A DNA stretch of 55,599 nt, from positions 1-55,599 of the forward strand of contig JAISMY010000042.1 of NCBI GenBank assembly GCA_031276485.1, read 5' to 3'. The notes below the pieces were generated by a model that was not told where the DNA came from, did not search any database, and was given only the letters and a program-made list of their open reading frames with translations. Of this stretch, positions 7,015 through 55,356 are shown piece after piece. How positions within the stretch are numbered: position 1 is the stretch's first letter; the number at the start of each line of letters is the position of its first letter. The stretch is from Desulfovibrio sp. Its GTDB lineage: Bacteria > Desulfobacterota > Desulfovibrionia > Desulfovibrionales > Desulfovibrionaceae. A program made the position numbers and the translations under genes.

Positions 7015-7390
7015 GGTGGTCTCCTTTAGAGCATTGCAACTTTGCGATTACTATCCATCAAGTTCTCTTTAGAGTACGCCGGCTTCAGCCTTTCAAAAGA
7101 ATACCTGATTCCGTACTGTGTTCTGCCGATTTCGGGCCGGCGCACAGGGAAGGGTCATTCCGGGCGAAGCGAAGAAGCCGGCTTTATGCCTTGCGAAGCC
7201 GGGAAGACAGATTCTTCGCTTCGCTCAGAATGACGGAGAGGGGTATAGGCTCACTCATCTCTCCCTGAACTTGAACAGGGTTTTGGAGTGTTCAGAACTC
7301 TTTGGTTTCAAAAAGAATATCTGTTTTTTCAGAGTGCGGAAGAGCGGCTGAACATGGTCCGTAATCAGGAAAGAATAAAGCAGCGTTTCC
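7015..7390. other. Intergenic region between larA and clpA, mostly repeat
   Basis: No gene is visible. The first 90 bases upstream of larA hold its ribosome site and no convincing promoter. Bases 7104-7369 are a family B element. The sequence on both sides of it resembles the end of a family C element (CTTTCAAAAGAATA on the left, AAAGAATAAAGCAGCG on the right). Confidence 0.6.
7104..7369 (-). repeat. Family B palindromic MITE-like element, copy 1
   Basis: 266-bp element in reverse orientation relative to the copy at 14955. Its ends form terminal inverted repeats: CCTGATTCCGTACTGTGTTC at the left and the complement of CCTGATTACGGACCATGTTC at the right. The interior is palindromic around the GAAGCGAAGAAGCCGG segment. 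AAAGAATA occurs directly on both sides and may be an 8-bp target duplication. It codes for nothing recognisable. Confidence 0.7.
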
Positions 7391-14954: not shown

Positions 14955-15371
14955 CTGCTTACGGACCGTGTTCAGCCGCTCTTCCACGATCTGAAAAACA
15001 GATCTTCTTTTTGAAACCAAAGAGTTCTGAACACCTCGAAAACCTGTTCAATTTCAGGGAGAGAGGAGTGAGCCTACACCCCTCTCCGTCATTCTGAGCG
15101 CAGCGAAGAAGCTATTGCTCCGCCGAATAAACATTGCCAAACCAGGGGGACATATCTTTTATGCGGAGTGTGCTGTTTACGCTGACCGCGGCAAGCTTTA
15201 ATCGGGGGATCAATATCTTCCCGGCTTCGAAAGGCATAAAACCGGCTTCTTCGCTTCGCTCGGAATGACCTTATCCCTGTGCGCCGGCTCGAAAGCAGCC
15301 GAACATAGTACGGCTCGAAAGCAGCCGAACATAGTACGTAATAAAGCAGCCGAACATAGTACGTAATCAGG
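14955..15371 (+). repeat. Family B palindromic MITE-like element, copy 2, interrupted by family A
   Basis: The element begins CCTGCTTACGGACCGTGTTC and ends with the complement of CCTGATTACGTACTATGTTC, a terminal inverted repeat of about 27 bp. It includes a GATCTG-AAAAA-CAGATC hairpin at about 14983-15003 and a long GAAGCGAAGAAGC palindrome. A 99-bp family A element sits inside it at 15115-15213. Near its right end the segment GGCTCGAAAGCAGCCGAACA is repeated in tandem (15284-15350), a local duplication. Confidence 0.75.
15115..15213 (+). mobile_element. Family A 99-bp MITE, inserted in a family B element
   Basis: It starts TTGCTCCGCCGAATAAACAT and ends TTTAATCGGGGGATCAA. The two ends are imperfect inverted repeats of about 28 bp. 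TA flanks it on both sides (15113-15114 and 15214-15215). The family B copy at 48091-48112 lacks the insertion and reads GAAGAAGCTGTCTTCCCGG where this copy reads GAAGAAGC-TA-element-TA-TCTTCCCGG. It is non-coding. Confidence 0.88.
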
Positions 15372-16950: not shown

Positions 16951-17586
16951 TCAGGGCGCAGCCCGTCGGGATGCTTCGGGGTCGGCCGTTGCGGCGGCGC
17001 GGCGGGCTTCCGTTCCGGCTTCGGCGCGTTTCAGGCTGGCGGTTTCAAAGTCCCGGCGCGCCGCCCTGACGGCAGCCTTCGCGCTTTCCAGGGCGGCCTC
17101 GGCTTGCGCGGGTTCCGCTCCTCCCGTCCTGCCGCGCGCGGCGCCGGCCACGGCGCGCCGGTATGCGATTGCCGCCGCGGCCTCCCGGGAGGTCGCCTCC
17201 TGCAGGCGGAGTTCCGCCTCTTCCTCGGCAAGCCTTAGTATGCGCTCCCGCTCACCCGCGTTTTCCGCACCCCGCTCCGCGGCCTCCGCGCCGTGAGCAG
17301 GCGCGGAGGCCGGGGCCGGAGTGCCGCTCCCCCGGACCTCGACAGGCGGGGGGACGACGGCGTTGCCGTCCCCGGCGGATCCCGGCTCGGGCGCCGCATC
17401 GGGCGCCGCAGGGCAGGAGAGGGAAGGACGCGCGGCCTCGGGGGGCGGCCCATCGGCGCTGAAGCGGCGCAGGGCGGCACCCGCGGCAAGCGCAACGCAC
17501 ACCGCCGCAAGCAACAGCAGCACCAGCCGCAGCCGCCTGCCTTTGTCCGCGCCTCGCGCAGGCGCTTCGGGCATGCTCAACCGCAT
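16951..17586 (-). CDS. Unknown membrane-anchored, alanine-rich coiled-coil protein
   Basis: I do not recognise a family. The 211-residue protein has a basic N-terminus (KGRRLR), one membrane segment (about 20-40, [19 protein letters not shown]), a Pro/Ala-rich linker, then a helical Glu/Ala/Arg-rich stretch (about 110-200) likely to form a coiled coil. It is last in the flagellar-direction gene string, just before the epimerase gene, with 20 bases between. A family A element ends five bases before its ATG. The element end GGGGGATCAATA supplies the only Shine-Dalgarno-like sequence, so the insertion may have altered expression. A second ATG at 17574 is possible. Confidence 0.6.
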
Positions 17587-17592
17587 ACGTTA

Positions 17593-17691
17593 TTGATCCC
17601 CCGACTGAACTTTGCCGCAATCAGCGTAAACAGCGCACTCCGCATAAAAGACATGGTCTCCCGGTTCGACACTGTTTATTCGGTACAGCAA
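17593..17691 (-). mobile_element. Family A 99-bp MITE, reverse orientation
   Basis: Same length as the other three copies but in opposite orientation, reading TTGATCCCCCGACTGAACTT at its left end. TA precedes it (17591-17592). The expected TA on the right is missing. Instead the last 19 or so bases (GTTTATTCGGTACAGCAAG) are repeated in tandem at 17693-17711. It is the most diverged full-length copy. Confidence 0.82.
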
Positions 17692-17755
17692 GGTTTATTC
17701 GGTACAGCAAGGCCTCTTTCATGCCGCGTTGCTTTCCGCTGAAAGCGAAGCGGCT

Positions 17756-26957: not shown

Positions 26958-27010
26958 AACCCTTGATGCCGATTTGCTTTAAGCAGAAAGCAAATTGGTC
27001 TGGCGGCGGC
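26958..27010 (+). repeat. Family E repeat, copy 1
   Basis: Hairpin-forming sequence: AAATTTGC-type arms, TTTGCTTT with AAAGCAAA around AGCAG, followed by TGGCGGCGGCGG. A related copy is at 47262-47312. It is non-coding. Confidence 0.55.
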
Positions 27011-27171
27011 GGGCAAAGACCGCCTGCTCCTGTTTCGCGGCACGGCTTTGCAGGCAAATCCGTGCGGAGCAGTCCACGCGTGAACCGCTCTAAATCAAGG
27101 CAGCCGGACGCAGCGCCCGCATTCGGAAAATAATACATATATTACGCGGCAATACCATAGAGGACAGGAGA

Positions 27172-41742: not shown

Positions 41743-41912
41743 AGGGAAACGCTGATTATTGCTCCGCCGAATAAACATTGCCGAACCCGGGGGACATATC
41801 TTTTATGCGGAGTGCGCTGTTTACGCTAATCGCGGCAAGCTTTAATCGGGGGATCAATAAATGCGGAAAAGGCAGAAGACATCAAGACGGATTCTTCGCT
41901 GCGCCCGGAATG
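41743..41912 (+). repeat. Family C element, half copy, interrupted by family A
   Basis: CAGGGAAACGCTGAT, then TA, the family A element, TA, then AATGCGGAAAAGGCAGAAGA and GACGGATTCTTCGCTGCG. The second arm of the palindrome is absent. The uninterrupted version is at 55466-55520. Confidence 0.75.
41759..41857 (+). mobile_element. Family A 99-bp MITE, inserted in a family C element
   Basis: TTGCTCCGCCGAATAAACAT to TTTAATCGGGGGATCAA, flanked by TA at 41757-41758 and 41858-41859. The unoccupied site at 55475-55490 reads GCCGAT-TA-AATGCGGAAA, where this copy reads GCTGAT-TA-element-TA-AATGCGGAAA. It is the closest copy to the apparent consensus. Confidence 0.9.
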
Positions 41913-46072: not shown

Positions 46073-47265
46073 CCTTAACGCTGTGTCTGCTGATCGCCGC
46101 CTGGATGCTGACGGCGCTGTTGTACTGCGGTCTGGGCCTGGATACGGAGCGCCTGCACAAGGCGTTCCGGCTTGCCGGCCTGCCCGCGCCCGGGCCTTTG
46201 CCTCCGGCGGCCGTGATGATCCCCGTGACCGGGCGGGACAACGCTACGGAAACAGCCCTGCGCAGCCTGCTTGAGCAGGATTATCCGAACCTGACGGTCT
46301 ATCTCGCCGTCTACGGCACAGCCGACCCCGCGCACGCGTTAATCTCGGCGCTGAGTTCCCGCTACGCGCATGCGCGCCTTGTGCATGCGCCGGAAGCCGT
46401 CCGTTCGGGACAGAAAAATCAAAACCTGCTGTCCTGTCTTGAAACCGTCGCGCCGGACACCGCCGTCTATGTGTTCTGCGACGCCAACCATCGCGCGAAG
46501 CCGGACTTCGTGCGCAGGCTTGTTCACCCCATCCTGCTCGGTCAGGCCGATTTTTGCACGGGATATCGGCGTTCGCGCCTGTGTACGACGGAACCGGCCG
46601 CAACGGCGTTTCACGCCGTCAATCGTTTCATGCTGTTTCTTCAATCGCTGCCGTTTTTCACGCAACCGTGGGGCGGCGCCACGGCGGCGCGGGCGACGGC
46701 CTTCAAGCGTCTCGACGTCGCCGGACTATGGCGGCGGACGGTGGTGGATGATTCTTCCCTGGCAGGTCTGCTGGGCAAAAAAGGCATCCCTGTTTTGTTT
46801 TGCCCGGACGCCCTGTTGGAGAGCAGCGCCCGTTCGGTGACGCGGGAAGCTCTGGACGAGTGGCTGTACCGCCAGCTTTTTTATCCAAGGGTTTACACCT
46901 TCGGAGCCTGGCTGCTTATCGGCTTTTGTCTTGTCTGGTTTGCCGCAGCCTGCGCCGCCTGTCCGTATATCCTGTTCCAGGCCGCGCGGGGCGGCGGCGT
47001 GCCGTTCCTGATGCAGGCGGCCGCCTTGCTTGTCCTCTGCGGGCAGATACTGTTGCAGGAACTTCTGCGCCGGCGCATTGCGGCGGATTGCCCCAGGAGC
47101 GCATGGCTCAAAGGTCTTGCGCTTGCGGCAACGGCGCTTTTCCGCAACTATGCGCGCACTGTCGCGGGCAGGAGCATAGTCTGGCGCGGCATACGCTATG
47201 TCCTGGGAGCGGATGGACGTGTGCTCGGCGTGGAAAGAAAAGGCGACGCCGTTATACCCTCTTGA
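46069..47265 (+). CDS. Membrane glycosyltransferase family 2, HpnI/ceramide-glucosyltransferase-like
   Basis: 398 residues. An N-terminal helix (LCLLIAAWMLTALLYCGLGL) is followed by a GT-A domain: VMIPVTGRDNATETALRSLL, the DXD-like FCDANHRAKPDFVR, GGATAARATAFKRL and VVDDSSLAGLLGKKG. Two or three C-terminal helices anchor it. It probably adds a sugar to a lipid or to undecaprenyl-linked glycan; the exact acceptor is unknown. It starts at GTG 46069, coupled to the GT4 gene. A terminator follows at 47301-47332. Confidence 0.85.
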   Translation: MTLTLCLLIAAWMLTALLYCGLGLDTERLHKAFRLAGLPAPGPLPPAAVMIPVTGRDNATETALRSLLEQDYPNLTVYLAVYGTADPAHALISALSSRYAHARLVHAPEAVRSGQKNQNLLSCLETVAPDTAVYVFCDANHRAKPDFVRRLVHPILLGQADFCTGYRRSRLCTTEPAATAFHAVNRFMLFLQSLPFFTQPWGGATAARATAFKRLDVAGLWRRTVVDDSSLAGLLGKKGIPVLFCPDALLESSARSVTREALDEWLYRQLFYPRVYTFGAWLLIGFCLVWFAAACAACPYILFQAARGGGVPFLMQAAALLVLCGQILLQELLRRRIAADCPRSAWLKGLALAATALFRNYARTVAGRSIVWRGIRYVLGADGRVLGVERKGDAVIPS

Positions 47266-47312
47266 TACCAAACTGCTTTCAGCAGAAAGCAAACCGGTAT
47301 GGCGGCGGCGAA
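47262..47312 (+). repeat. Family E repeat, copy 2
   Basis: CTTGATACCAAACTGCTTTC, AGCAGAAAGCAAAC, then GGCGGCGGCG. It resembles 26958-27010 and leads directly into the terminator stem. Confidence 0.5.
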
Positions 47313-47332
47313 GCCGCCGCCCGCAGTTTTTT
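47301..47332 (+). terminator. Rho-independent terminator after the glycan cluster
   Basis: A 9-bp stem GGCGGCGGC-GAA-GCCGCCGCC (47301-47321), then CGCAG and six T (47327-47332). A second A/T-rich hairpin (CAGGC-TTC-GCCTG inside TTTGAAAA/TTTTCAAA) follows at 47330-47362. Confidence 0.7.
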
Positions 47333-47405
47333 GAAAATTCAGGCTTCGCCTGTTTTTCAAAAACTTCGGCGGCTTGCATTCAAACTCGTTTGGCGCAAGC
47401 TGTTA

Positions 47406-47504
47406 TTGCTCCACCGAATAAACATTGCCGAACAGGAGGGACATGTCTTTTATGCGGAGAGCGCTGTTTACGCTAATCACGGCAAGCTTTAAGCGGGGGA
47501 TCAA
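47406..47504 (+). mobile_element. Family A 99-bp MITE, overlapping the thioesterase stop codon
   Basis: TTGCTCCACCGAATAAACAT to TTTAAGCGGGGGATCAA, with TA at 47404-47405 and 47505-47506. Its right end reads TTGATC on the minus strand, and the TGA there is the stop codon of the thioesterase gene. Confidence 0.88.
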
Positions 47505-47920
47505 TATAAAAGATAAAAAGTCGCGCCGGCCGAAGCGAGCAGGCGATCTTTCTCGTCGTACACTTCCGATGCGGCCGTGCATAAGGTTTTCCCGAGCTTG
47601 AGCAGCCGGCCCACGGCGTAGAGGTCAGCCTCCCGGCAGGGGCCGGCGCTGCGCAGGTAGCGCATGTTCATTTCTACGGTGACCGTTGCCCGGTCCGCTC
47701 CTGCGGCGGCCATCACGGCATGGGCCATGACTTCGTCGGCCATGGTGGCGAGTATGCCTCCGGCAACAGCGCCGCCCCCCTGGATAAGCCCCGGACCCAC
47801 AGGCAGGGTCAGACGCGCCGTGCCGTCGGGTTCAAGGCGCAGCCGCGCATGCAGAAAGTTGAACAGGGGATTTACGCTTTGCCGTTCCCCGCAGACGTCG
47901 TCAAGGTATGTGCGAGTCAT
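47501..47920 (-). CDS. PaaI-type hot-dog thioesterase
   Basis: 139 residues. It resembles the PaaI/YdiI acyl-CoA thioesterase family: NFLHARLRLEPDGTARLTLP, GGAVAGGILATMADEVMAHA and TVEMNMRYLRSAG. The usual HGG motif reads QGGGAVAGG. The acyl-CoA substrate is unknown. The last residues, YLLY, run to the edge of a family A element whose terminal TGA ends the frame, so the original C-terminus may have been changed by insertion. No strong ribosome site is visible. Confidence 0.8.
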   Translation of the reverse strand: MTRTYLDDVCGERQSVNPLFNFLHARLRLEPDGTARLTLPVGPGLIQGGGAVAGGILATMADEVMAHAVMAAAGADRATVTVEMNMRYLRSAGPCREADLYAVGRLLKLGKTLCTAASEVYDEKDRLLASAGATFYLLY

Positions 47921-48008
47921 TCACCGCCTCTCAATCCGGATTGCGGTACTGGCGAAGATTTTACCGGTTGCCGCGGAAATCGGTAAACAGCAGCCGTAAG
48001 GCCGAGGC

Positions 48009-48203
48009 GTTCTGAACACCTCGAAAACCTGTTCAATTTCAGGGAGAGATGCGTGAGCCTACACCCCTCTCCGTAATTCTGAGCGAAGCGAAGAAGCTGT
48101 CTTCCCGGCTTCGAAAGGCATAAAGCCGGCTTCTTCGCTTCGCTCAGAATGACCTTTTCCTGTGCGCCGGCTCGAAAGTAGCTGAACATAGTACGTAATC
48201 AGG
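48009..48203 (+). repeat. Family B element, copy 3, truncated at its left end, no family A insertion
   Basis: GTTCTGAACACCTCGAAAAC through GTACGTAATCAGG. It contains GAAGAAGCTGTCTTCCCGG at 48091-48109, the unoccupied form of the family A site at 15113. AAAGAATAAACCGGCGGTTC follows, similar to a family C end. Confidence 0.75.
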
Positions 48204-51706: not shown

Positions 51707-54700
51707 TCACGCGCGTCAAAGCTTCGGCCGGTTCAGGAAAAACCTATACGCTGACGCAAAAGTTTCTTGAACTGCTCTACAGGGCGGACCCCGACGCCCC
51801 GGCATCGGCCTGCGCCCTGCACGGACGCGCGGACGGCTACGCCCTGCAGGAAATACTCGCGGCCACGTTCACCAACAAAGCCGCGGCGGAAATGAAGGAC
51901 CGCGTTCTTTCCGCGCTGAAACATGAGGCCCTGCGCAACCTTGCCGAACCCGCCGAAGCGCGGCGCGGGCCGTCGCCGGCGGAACTGTGGATCGAGCGCA
52001 TCCTGCGCCGCTACGGCGCCCTGAACATACGCACCATAGACAGCCTGCTGACCACTCTGGCCCGTCTGTCCGCCCTGGAACTCAACCTGCATCCCGATTT
52101 TGAGCCGTCTTTCGACGCCGACGAGTTTTTCACGCCCTATTATGACGCCCTGACGGCAGACCTGGCCGCGGACGACACGGAGCGGACGAACCGGGAAGGC
52201 GGCCCCGGCCTTCAGGCCGGGGTTTCAAACCATAAAGGAAGCTTTGACGACAAGCGGGTTTTTCATACCGCCGATGCGGGCGCCCTGCGCGCCGCGCTGC
52301 GCTCGGCCTGTAAAAGCCTGTTGTCTTACAGTTCCATGCGCGGGTTCACCCTGGGCGACAGGCTGCATGGTCCGCTCCTGGAACTCGTCGCTTTCGCCCT
52401 GCCCGGCATGCCGCCGGCGGCCGGGGAGGACGGCGGTTCGGCGTTCGCGGAGTCTTCATCCGGTCCGGGGACGCCCCCCGCGGGGGAGCAGGACGTCCGC
52501 GCCGGCCGGCAGAGGCCGCTTTGCCGGGAGGAACGGCTGCTCCCGGCCGCGGAGGAAAGCGGGATATTCGCCCGCATAAACGGCCTGCACTCGCCGTGCA
52601 AAGCGGCTTGCGCGGACCTTCTCGAACTTATAGGGCGGGAAAAACTCAACGCCAAAGCGCATTACCTTACGTTTTTGCGGAACTGCTCCCTGTCCGATCC
52701 GGGCCGAAGCCTGTATTCCGAAACCTGGACGGGCAAGACGGACTTCGACGACTGCCTGAACAGGTCCTCCAAAGGGGCGGCCCCGCAAAACGCCCTGCAG
52801 GCCTTTGCGCGCGCGCATGACGCGCTCCGGCGCTATGCCGTAAACCTGCCCGTCCTGCTCCACGCCCTGCGCCTGGCGCCCCTGTGCCGTCTGGCCGGGG
52901 AACTCTGCGCGCGCATGAAGGCCGACAAAACGTCGAAGCTGCTTCCCGCCCTGCTCCTGCCGCATCTGACGGCCGGCCTGATGAACGGCGCAACGGGGGT
53001 GTCCGATGCCCTGTGTCGCCTGGGCACACGCATCTCCCGCATCCTTTTGGACGAATTTCAGGATACCAGCCGTGAACAGTGGAACGCCGTCCTGCCCCTC
53101 GCGCTTGAAGCCCTGGCCACCGGAGGCAGCCTCACCCTGGTGGGCGACGCCAAGCAGGCCGTTTACGGCTGGCGCGGCGGCGACACGGCGCTTTTCGACG
53201 AAGTCGATCTCTCGCCGGCGCTCCGCAGGGTCGGCGGCGAGCCGAAAACGCTGTTCCTCACCGTCAACCGGCGCAGCCGCCCGCGCATCGTCGAACACAA
53301 CAACGCCTTTTTTTCCCTCCTGGAACAACCCCAAACGGCCGCGGCCGTCATGAACGCGCTGCTCCCCGAGGATACGCCGGACTCCTACAGGCGGGCGGCG
53401 GCAGAAGAAGTGACGAAGATTTTCCGCGGGGTACGTCAACAGCTTCCGCCGGACGACGATCCGGATGCCCTCCTCAGTGACGGTCAAGCCGAGGTCGTGC
53501 TGTACACCGTGGAAGAATCCGGGGCGGCAGCCGTGCAAGAGGTCGTAAGCCGGAGGCTGCGCCGGCTTTTTACGGAGGAACTGCCCAAGCGCAGGCCCTA
53601 CGGCGACATTGCCGTTCTTGTCCGCACCGGGGACGAGGCGGAGTACATTGCCGACCTGCTGACGCAACTGCATATTCCCGTGGTGACGGAAAACAGCTTC
53701 AGGCTTTTCGCCCACCCTCTTGTCGGCAAACTTGTTTCTTTCCTGACCTTTCTGGATTACCCGCCTGATGATGCGGCGTTCATGGAGTGCATTTCCGGGC
53801 CGGAGCTTGCCGGCGGTTACGCGGGCCACGATGCGCAGGAGCTGCTCGCCTGGGCGGCGGAAAGCGCATTCAGCCGCGCGCCTTCCCGTCCCCCGCTGTA
53901 TACCCTTTTCCGCGCGCGCTGCCCGGCGCTGTGGGCGAGCCTGTTCGAGCCGTTTTATGTCGAAGCCGGACTTATGAGCGCCTATGACCTGCTTGCCGAA
54001 ATCGTCCGCCGCTTCGAGCTTGAGTTGCGCAGACCCCGTGATATCCCCTTTATCCGCCGGCTTCTGGAGCTTGCGCACAGCGCGGAACAGCAAGGTTGCG
54101 TCTCCCCGGCGGCTTTTCTCGCGTTTTGCCGCAAGCGCAATGCGGATGAAAAGCTGCCCATGCCGGAGAACACGGGAGCCGTGCGCGTGATGACCATCCA
54201 CAAGGCCAAGGGTCTGGAGTTTCCTGTCGTTGTCCTGCCTTTTCAGCATAAACAGACGCCGTTCAGCCCGAAAATCGTGCGGCGCGCTTTGCTCGGACTG
54301 GACCTGGCGACCCGCGAAACGCGCGAACTGCCCGACCTGTATTATCCGGCCCGCGTGCGCGAGGAGCTTGAGCGGCTGAACCTGCTGTATGTGGCCTGGA
54401 CGCGCCCGGTTTACGAGCTGCATGCCTTTTTGACCAATCCGGGGACGCGGGCGGCCGGGGCCTTGAAACTGCTGGCCGGCATCTACCGTGAACAATGCGG
54501 GGACCGCTTCTGCCGCTGGGAACGACCGGGCGCGGAGGATCGCGCAGAGTCGGGCGACGCGAGGCCGGAATCAGGGGATGCGCCCGGCGCGAGGCCGGAA
54601 TCAGGGGATGCGCCCGGCGCGAGGCCGGAATCAGGGGATGCGCCCGACGCGAGGCCGGAATCAGGGGATGCGCCCGACGCGAGGCCGGAATCAGGGGATG

Positions 54701-55356
54701 CGCCCGGCGCGAGGCCGCAGTCCCGTCCTCTGCCTCCCCTGCCGTGGCGTCCCATGCAAACCTGGCCCCGTCTGAAAATATTCCGCTCGCATCCGGAAAC
54801 GGCCCCGGCCGGAGAGAGGCCGGGCTATGCGGAAACAGGCGTTCCCGGTTCGTCCTTGACGGCGCGGGAACGCGGCGTCCTGCTGCACCTGTGCCTTGAG
54901 CATCTGCATCTGCCGCGCGTCGGCGGGCGGGAGGCCGTGGAAGAAGCGGTCGCGCGGGCGGCAGCCTGCGCCCTGCGTCTTTTCCCGCCGCCGCTTGAAC
55001 AAACGGAAAGCGTCGCCGGCGAACTGCGCGCGGCCCTGCTGCGCTTCGCCGCCCTTCCCGACGCCGCGGCCTGGCTGGCCTGCGGTCTGCGTGAACAGAG
55101 CGTCATGGATGAGCAGGGCAAGGTCTACAGAACGGATTTGCTCGTGGATATGCGCGCCCTCGGACGCCCGGACGACGCTGCGGACGGCGGACTGCTCGTG
55201 CTGGATTACAAAAGCGGGACATACAGAGAAAGCCACATACAGCAGATGCGCCGTTACATGCGGCTGCTGGCCGGGGCAAGCGGGCGGCCGACGCGCGGTC
55301 TCCTCGTGTATCTCGACGGCACGCTTCTGCCCGTTGACGGGACATGCGCGGCATGA
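51703..55356 (+). CDS. AddA/RecB-type UvrD helicase with C-terminal nuclease
   Basis: 1217 residues. Superfamily 1 helicase motifs in order: I VKASAGSGKTYTLTQKF, Ia ATFTNKAAAEMKDRV, II LLDEFQDTSREQW, III LVGDAKQAVYGWRGGD, IV FLTVNRRSRPRIVEHNN, V VMTIHKAKGLEFPVVVLPF, VI LLYVAWTRPVYEL. The C-terminal PD-(D/E)XK nuclease shows YRTDLLVDM and LLVLDYKSGTY. It should process DNA double-strand ends with an AddB-like partner, not in this window. It starts at GTG 51703. Two features are repeat-derived: a family D hairpin at about residues 167-180, and a 30-bp minisatellite between helicase and nuclease. Motif VI has Pro where Ala is usual (TRP for TRA). Confidence 0.92.
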   Translation: MITRVKASAGSGKTYTLTQKFLELLYRADPDAPASACALHGRADGYALQEILAATFTNKAAAEMKDRVLSALKHEALRNLAEPAEARRGPSPAELWIERILRRYGALNIRTIDSLLTTLARLSALELNLHPDFEPSFDADEFFTPYYDALTADLAADDTERTNREGGPGLQAGVSNHKGSFDDKRVFHTADAGALRAALRSACKSLLSYSSMRGFTLGDRLHGPLLELVAFALPGMPPAAGEDGGSAFAESSSGPGTPPAGEQDVRAGRQRPLCREERLLPAAEESGIFARINGLHSPCKAACADLLELIGREKLNAKAHYLTFLRNCSLSDPGRSLYSETWTGKTDFDDCLNRSSKGAAPQNALQAFARAHDALRRYAVNLPVLLHALRLAPLCRLAGELCARMKADKTSKLLPALLLPHLTAGLMNGATGVSDALCRLGTRISRILLDEFQDTSREQWNAVLPLALEALATGGSLTLVGDAKQAVYGWRGGDTALFDEVDLSPALRRVGGEPKTLFLTVNRRSRPRIVEHNNAFFSLLEQPQTAAAVMNALLPEDTPDSYRRAAAEEVTKIFRGVRQQLPPDDDPDALLSDGQAEVVLYTVEESGAAAVQEVVSRRLRRLFTEELPKRRPYGDIAVLVRTGDEAEYIADLLTQLHIPVVTENSFRLFAHPLVGKLVSFLTFLDYPPDDAAFMECISGPELAGGYAGHDAQELLAWAAESAFSRAPSRPPLYTLFRARCPALWASLFEPFYVEAGLMSAYDLLAEIVRRFELELRRPRDIPFIRRLLELAHSAEQQGCVSPAAFLAFCRKRNADEKLPMPENTGAVRVMTIHKAKGLEFPVVVLPFQHKQTPFSPKIVRRALLGLDLATRETRELPDLYYPARVREELERLNLLYVAWTRPVYELHAFLTNPGTRAAGALKLLAGIYREQCGDRFCRWERPGAEDRAESGDARPESGDAPGARPESGDAPGARPESGDAPDARPESGDAPDARPESGDAPGARPQSRPLPPLPWRPMQTWPRLKIFRSHPETAPAGERPGYAETGVPGSSLTARERGVLLHLCLEHLHLPRVGGREAVEEAVARAAACALRLFPPPLEQTESVAGELRAALLRFAALPDAAAWLACGLREQSVMDEQGKVYRTDLLVDMRALGRPDDAADGGLLVLDYKSGTYRESHIQQMRRYMRLLAGASGRPTRGLLVYLDGTLLPVDGTCAA
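52203..52240 (-). repeat. Family D element, copy 4, inside the helicase-nuclease gene
   Basis: On the minus strand TTCCTTTATGGTTTGAAA, then an 8-bp hairpin CCCCGGCC-TGAA-GGCCGGGG. The helicase frame reads through it as PGLQAGVSNHKGS. Confidence 0.65.
54557..54717 (+). repeat. 30-bp minisatellite in the helicase-nuclease gene
   Basis: Five complete 30-bp units (54557-54706) and a partial sixth, nearly identical at DNA level (GGC/GAC variation at the end). They encode ARPESGDAPG repeats between helicase motif VI and the nuclease. Multiples of three keep the frame, so copy number can change without breaking the gene. Confidence 0.92.

Follow-up and report, generated by a model that had tools for sequence, protein, structure and literature searches.

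A family of 99-bp repeats with TA flanks and IS630-type ends in a Desulfovibrio genome, probably a miniature transposon formed by internal deletion

In the window (the whole stretch of DNA that was analysed, 55,599 nucleotides of Desulfovibrio sp. contig JAISMY010000042.1), a 99-bp repeat occurs four times, at the positions where a preliminary description had placed the copies of a miniature inverted-repeat transposable element (MITE) family. The copies, the repeat that one of them splits and the interior segments discussed below are:

15024..15307, + strand: family-B repeat split by copy 1 (halves 15024-15113 and 15216-15307)
15113..15215, + strand: MITE copy 1 (15115-15213) with TA on both sides, inserted in family B
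15115-15138 and 15190-15213, + strand: left and right terminal repeats of copy 1
15154..15189, + strand: interior of copy 1 matching transposase C-terminal codons, by homology with the scored copies 3 and 4
17591..17711, - strand: MITE copy 2 (17593-17691), TA at 17591-17592, other end altered
41757..41859, + strand: MITE copy 3 (41759-41857), TA on each side
41798..41833, + strand: putative C-terminal codon remnant of copy 3, IFYAECAVYANR (score reached by 3/1000 shuffles)
47404..47506, + strand: MITE copy 4 (47406-47504), TA on each side
47445..47480, + strand: putative C-terminal codon remnant of copy 4, VFYAESAVYANH (3/1000 shuffles)
48005..48190, + strand: uninterrupted family-B copy, TG at the insertion site

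With TA flanks included, copies 3 and 4 are 95% and 88% identical to copy 1. The earlier four-copy account held as to position and needs correcting for copy 2, which is inverted and rearranged: it is 84% identical to copy 3, and its outer end has changed to TTGCTGTACCG, with tandem repetition over ~20 bp reaching ~17711. This altered, tandemly repeated outer end accounts for the right-hand TA that had been reported missing at 17691. The imperfect inverted ends read as previously written, and upon direct reading their pairing extends to 24 bp, with 19/24 positions matching. Two open reading frames on the minus strand end inside or begin close to a copy: ORF 47501-47920 has its stop codon in copy 4 (47501-47503), and the ATG of ORF 16951-17586 has copy 2 beginning 7 bp upstream of it (window 17586-17593). 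Elsewhere in the window there are 30-bp repeats in tandem and 49-90-bp repeats at irregular spacing (54525-54752 and 912-1967).

Searching the draft genome that contains the window (2.23 Mb in 116 contigs, 86.9% complete) with the 99-bp query, we obtained 33 matches, 21 of which were uninterrupted copies with both ends, while the others were truncated, interrupted or one-ended. The two-ended copies measured 98-101 bp, with one exception of 107 bp, so that the repeat is short, present in many copies and devoid of a transposase gene, as a MITE should be. Divergence among 20 of these copies was lowest at the ends (3.1% vs 7.1-19.4% inside), which fits the expectation if transposase binding selects the ends, and their median pairwise identity of 90% indicates that most insertions are not very recent. 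Two 99-bp copies themselves contain an insert, of 141 bp in L021 and of 132 bp in L027. The 141-bp repeat has inverted ends TACCAAGTTGC/GCAACTTGGTA (L021:1587-1727), occurs further in L028, L029 and L207 and, as pieces, in the window at 26962-27011 and 47261-47404, and sits inside 99-bp copies and family B with a duplication of TA or TTA. The 132-bp insert (L027:1533-1664), flanked by a TTAG duplication, is a third kind of small element.

A TA dinucleotide abuts 38 of the 42 ends of the two-ended copies and stands on both sides in 17/21 of them, at a background frequency of 0.027 (2.7%) in those loci. The preliminary description had read the TA duplication from a filled/empty pair in family B, in which the interruption at 15113 and the uninterrupted sequence at 48091-48109 are both present, while the empty copy reads TG, not TA, at the site; a TA duplication thus follows not from this copy by itself but from the family-B copies with TA. 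Family B gave 51 matches in the genome, 30 loci of which are given, and the insertion site was read within L190-L214; L212 was left out as a reverse reading of the L205 place, and six others, two of them halves of the interrupted copy, had no readable site. The 18 readable uninterrupted copies, the empty copy of the original pair included, have TA in 8 cases and TG in 10. A second comparison came from copy L013, which sits in another repeat and reads TTATTA-element-TAATTTG, where all four empty paralogous places (C10:5589, C10:6858, C86:20605 and C86:21013) read CTATTAATTTG with a single TA. Together, copy number, flanks and these two filled/empty comparisons uphold the reading as a MITE with TA duplication. 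Three further loci were compared. At L007, the sister genome G013, with identities of 91% and 89% to either side of the locus, lacks both the element and neighbouring sequence, so that this comparison shows absence only; at copy 3, synteny with the sister genomes breaks at the element and no empty site was found; and the flanks of the L014 copy lie in another repeat, with a junction that is not clean. The repeat hosting L014 is up to ~158 bp long and abundant in the genus (many places in G008, G009, G003 and G012). Family B itself measures ~186 bp and has CATTCTGAGCGAAGCGAAGAA as inverted arms (window 7119-7298, 15024-15307 and 48005-48190), and G013 carries a 247-bp composite in which MITE-type ends surround a family-B-like repeat (L048:1501-1747; L053; L145) and which recurs one-ended elsewhere.

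As DDE transposons, IS630 elements take TA as their insertion site. The IS630/Tc1-mariner class, proposed earlier from the TA duplication and the inverted ends, is supported by the C-terminal transposase codons of the interior, described below, and by L173, an intact IS630 element with ends of this type in a Ruminiclostridium MAG (Bacillota). This element spans 1,130 bp including its TA flanks and encodes a 347-aa ORF that matches NCBIfam IS630 (E 2e-71) and Pfam DDE_3 (1.7e-41) together with HTH domains. Its ends, TTGATACACCAAATAAACCTTGCC and, read inward, TTGTTCCCCCAATTAAACCTTGCC, match the left and right repeats of the Desulfovibrio element at 20/24 and 21/24 bases, and the same MAG holds a 121-bp MITE with such ends (L088). 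Transposases or fragments also adjoin such ends in L154, L172, L083, L076, L115 and L176, and were absent beside the ends of L189 and L178, which were checked likewise. The 99-bp element shares its ends with L173 and other IS630-family elements, in other phyla. The two ends share a polarity with those of the insertion sequences, position 13 being A in our left end and in 2/2 IS 5' ends and T in our right end and in 4/6 IS 3' ends; the 3' ends of L083 and L176 have A there, which counts against the polarity argument. L154 (623-1629) encodes its IS630 transposase in two overlapping frames, either by a frameshift or as a two-frame gene. In L103 (206-430), from Desulfovibrio Ncb351_bin103, an N-terminal HTH fragment of an IS630 transposase (Pfam HTH_23) runs straight into the end motif, with no DDE domain left; this is another deletion derivative, unlike the 99-bp element, and the only trace of an L173-type transposase seen in a Desulfovibrio.

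The interior of the element is best read as the final ~12 codons of an IS630-type transposase, as judged from sequence comparison. Toward its right end the G003 element reads IFYAEYTIYAA*, compared to FFNAPFTKYAA* in L173. A profile built from six IS C-termini was run against nine elements in all six reading frames, and each element was compared with 1,000 dinucleotide shuffles of itself. Two profile members, L154 and L115, come from a different frame than the coding stretch upstream of them, and their genes therefore look frameshifted. Within the own genome, the score was reached by 3, 3, 4 and 201 shuffles for L001, L008, L017 and L020, and elsewhere by 10 for G008, 0 for G003, 1 for G062, 6 for G064 and 350 for G067. 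The signal thus appeared at ≤1% in 7/9 elements, from five genomes, and was absent from L020 and from the one-ended G067 stretch (L139). By eye, a stop codon lies 4 nt ahead of the right-repeat GGCAA (or a variant of it) in G003, in G062 and in 5/6 IS ends, L083 being the exception, while the stop-codon triplet region is gone from the copies of the own genome.

These data bear on what else the interior might be. It is unlikely that the repeat is an IS630-driven MITE whose interior is unrelated filler, the codon match being due to chance or to a shared subterminal binding site: such a reading would suit the two elements without a codon signal, the shortness of the match and the different, longer interiors of Bacillota MITEs with the same ends, but it sits poorly with a signal in seven elements of five genomes that in G003 exceeded every shuffle, and with a stop codon at the same spacing in both stop-keeping elements and in all but one of the IS ends. 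Far less probable is that the element is retained for an action on neighbouring transcripts, as a structured RNA or a REP-like repeat, with mobility secondary or past. The inverted ends could pair, and folding of the G008 copy is somewhat better than that of its shuffles (z -1.79 and -2.16), but for the own copy neither strand outdid its shuffles (z -0.85 and -1.26, with 37 and 24 of 200 shuffles folding as well). Moreover, mismatches within the repeats, such as position 8 (A/G on the left vs C on the right), are conserved or vary uncompensated, and the Rfam gathering score was reached in the window solely by two tRNAs and not by the 99-bp element.

Least credible of all is a translation-start cassette in which an internal ribosome-binding site and ATG would drive downstream genes. 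Copies such as 47406 do carry AGGAGG-GAC-ATG, but ATA replaces that ATG in others, e.g., 15115 and 41759, no systematic long frame continues from the ATG (by eye), and a transposase remnant explains the same bases. On the evidence of folding, Rfam and the ATA-for-ATG replacement, we rejected the structured RNA, the REP-like repeat and the start-codon cassette alike.

Neither the own genome nor the genus nor the family matches checked yielded a transposase with such ends, so that a parent in this lineage remains unseen. The end pattern has 52 matches in the own genome, only one of which (C110:4187) was recognised as lying outside any copy, and no pair of them bounds a transposase. Four IS630-like DDE_3 hits (on C20, C27, C60 and C112) were rejected as partners, since the flanks examined lack the end motif at ≤5 mismatches. 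Hence, no matching transposase accompanies the element in this 86.9% complete assembly, although the class does not strictly require one; because the draft is not complete and repeats are hard to assemble, such a transposase could be unassembled. P0001 has matches in 4/15 genus genomes, where neither the G010 transposases (36% identity to P0001) nor those at L166-L168 and L170 have these ends, and at E ≤1e-30 in 5/288 genomes of the family (32-38% identity), where the flanks checked (L183-L186) likewise lack them. Viral contigs contained neither a transposase relative nor the end motif, plasmid and phage records did not match the 99-bp element, and plasmids did not match the R. flavefaciens element.

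As the ends resemble those of L173 and the interior resembles C-terminal transposase codons, an internal-deletion derivative mobilised in trans is the most likely explanation: we estimate a probability of roughly 0.8, from sequence, that the 99-bp repeat is a non-autonomous miniature transposon of the IS630 family whose left end was joined to its right end and which uses a transposase supplied in trans. Its left part would be an IS630-family 24-bp inverted repeat plus ~14 bp, and its right part the ~12 final codons of the transposase, followed by a short spacer and a second 24-bp inverted repeat, the internal deletion having presumably fused the left end of the insertion sequence straight to the right one. 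An IS630 transposase would then bind both ends and excise the element by cut-and-paste chemistry, and the element would insert at a TA that becomes duplicated. A deletion origin of the family is probable; both this origin, given that no Desulfovibrio parent was found for the ~100-bp group, and the transposase that amplified the element in its own genome are things that we infer.

The element is of an ordinary kind and forms a well-resolved new family, the closest known system, compared by description, being RUP. RUP is described as a 107-bp repeat with IS630-like inverted ends, a TA target and ~100 copies per genome (PMC2229807, PMC3049150), the TA target being common to RUP and IS630-Spn1 (PMC2229807). 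The 99-bp element resembles this pair in its length of ~100 bp, in inverted ends like those of an IS630 element and in its TA target, but it has a host of another phylum, C-terminal codons inside and no parent IS seen in its own genome. Judged by description it appears to work like RUP, and we do not claim membership in RUP. Correia/NEMIS and ERIC are likewise small repeats with TA at their ends, Correia being listed with a 24-bp TIR and a target duplication (PMC2229807); they occur in other hosts, and the likeness is again one of description. MITEs of Ruminococcus, other Bacillota and Alistipes (e.g., L157 of R. flavefaciens FD-1) share the same 26-bp end motif with TA, but are mostly longer, with interiors that, beyond the ends, fail to align to those of the Desulfobacterota group. 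L173 shares the ends, the position-13 polarity and the C-terminal codons, but is autonomous and much longer. The preliminary description knew of no account of this element, and in the literature searched no paper contains any of six end sequences and no keyword match appears to be such an account.

When 59 genomes (the own and 58 relatives) were searched with DNA, matches appeared in three members of a single genus, namely the own genome, G003 and G008, with four copies in G008 that are 97-100% alike, and at ≤2 mismatches the end pattern occurs in 5/15 genus genomes, the own included. Scanning the GTDB species genomes with TATTGMTYCNCCRAWTAAASNTTGCC yielded at least 108 stretches, several from one genome, where by our own estimate <1 chance match is expected in 257 billion bases of even composition. 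By name, the matches listed (at least 108) belong to Bacillota (97), Desulfovibrio (7), Deltaproteobacteria (1), Alistipes (2) and Accumulibacter (1), with the caveat that the MAG labels Accumulibacter and Alistipes may be binning errors. In an alignment of twelve examples, the ~100-bp Desulfobacterota elements aligned end to end (67-80%) and the 125-163-bp Bacillota and Alistipes elements mostly aligned over most of their length (61-98%), while matches from one group to the other mostly covered 28-42 bp at an end, with two longer ones of 58 and 67 bp. MITEs in two Alistipes contigs (L109:3462-3619 and L129:2685-2842) are 74-79% identical to Ruminococcus MITEs (L075 and L137), which reflects either cross-phylum spread or a binning error. 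The end motif lies within ~100 bp of a contig end in 26 of 108 stretches among the matches listed (by eye), and thus also marks assembly breaks.

The wide sharing of one end signal in gut bacteria is the most interesting part of these findings. It is conceivable, at somewhat below even odds, that a single IS630 clade whose 26-bp end signal is nearly fixed has given rise, in gut bacteria of at least three phyla, to several independent MITE families, whose non-autonomous elements persist without a transposase and perhaps cross phyla. If true, these families would be a ~100-bp Desulfobacterota group that retains the final codons of the transposase and a Bacillota and Alistipes group of mostly 112-164 bp. 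It is rare for a bacterial MITE family to be linked to a parent element, and a 2007 review names RUP as the then exception in being tied to its parent (PMC2229807). Here, the parent class, the target site and the probable deletion can all be read from the sequence, and the shared end motif offers a handle for following mobile DNA as it moves between phyla in gut communities.
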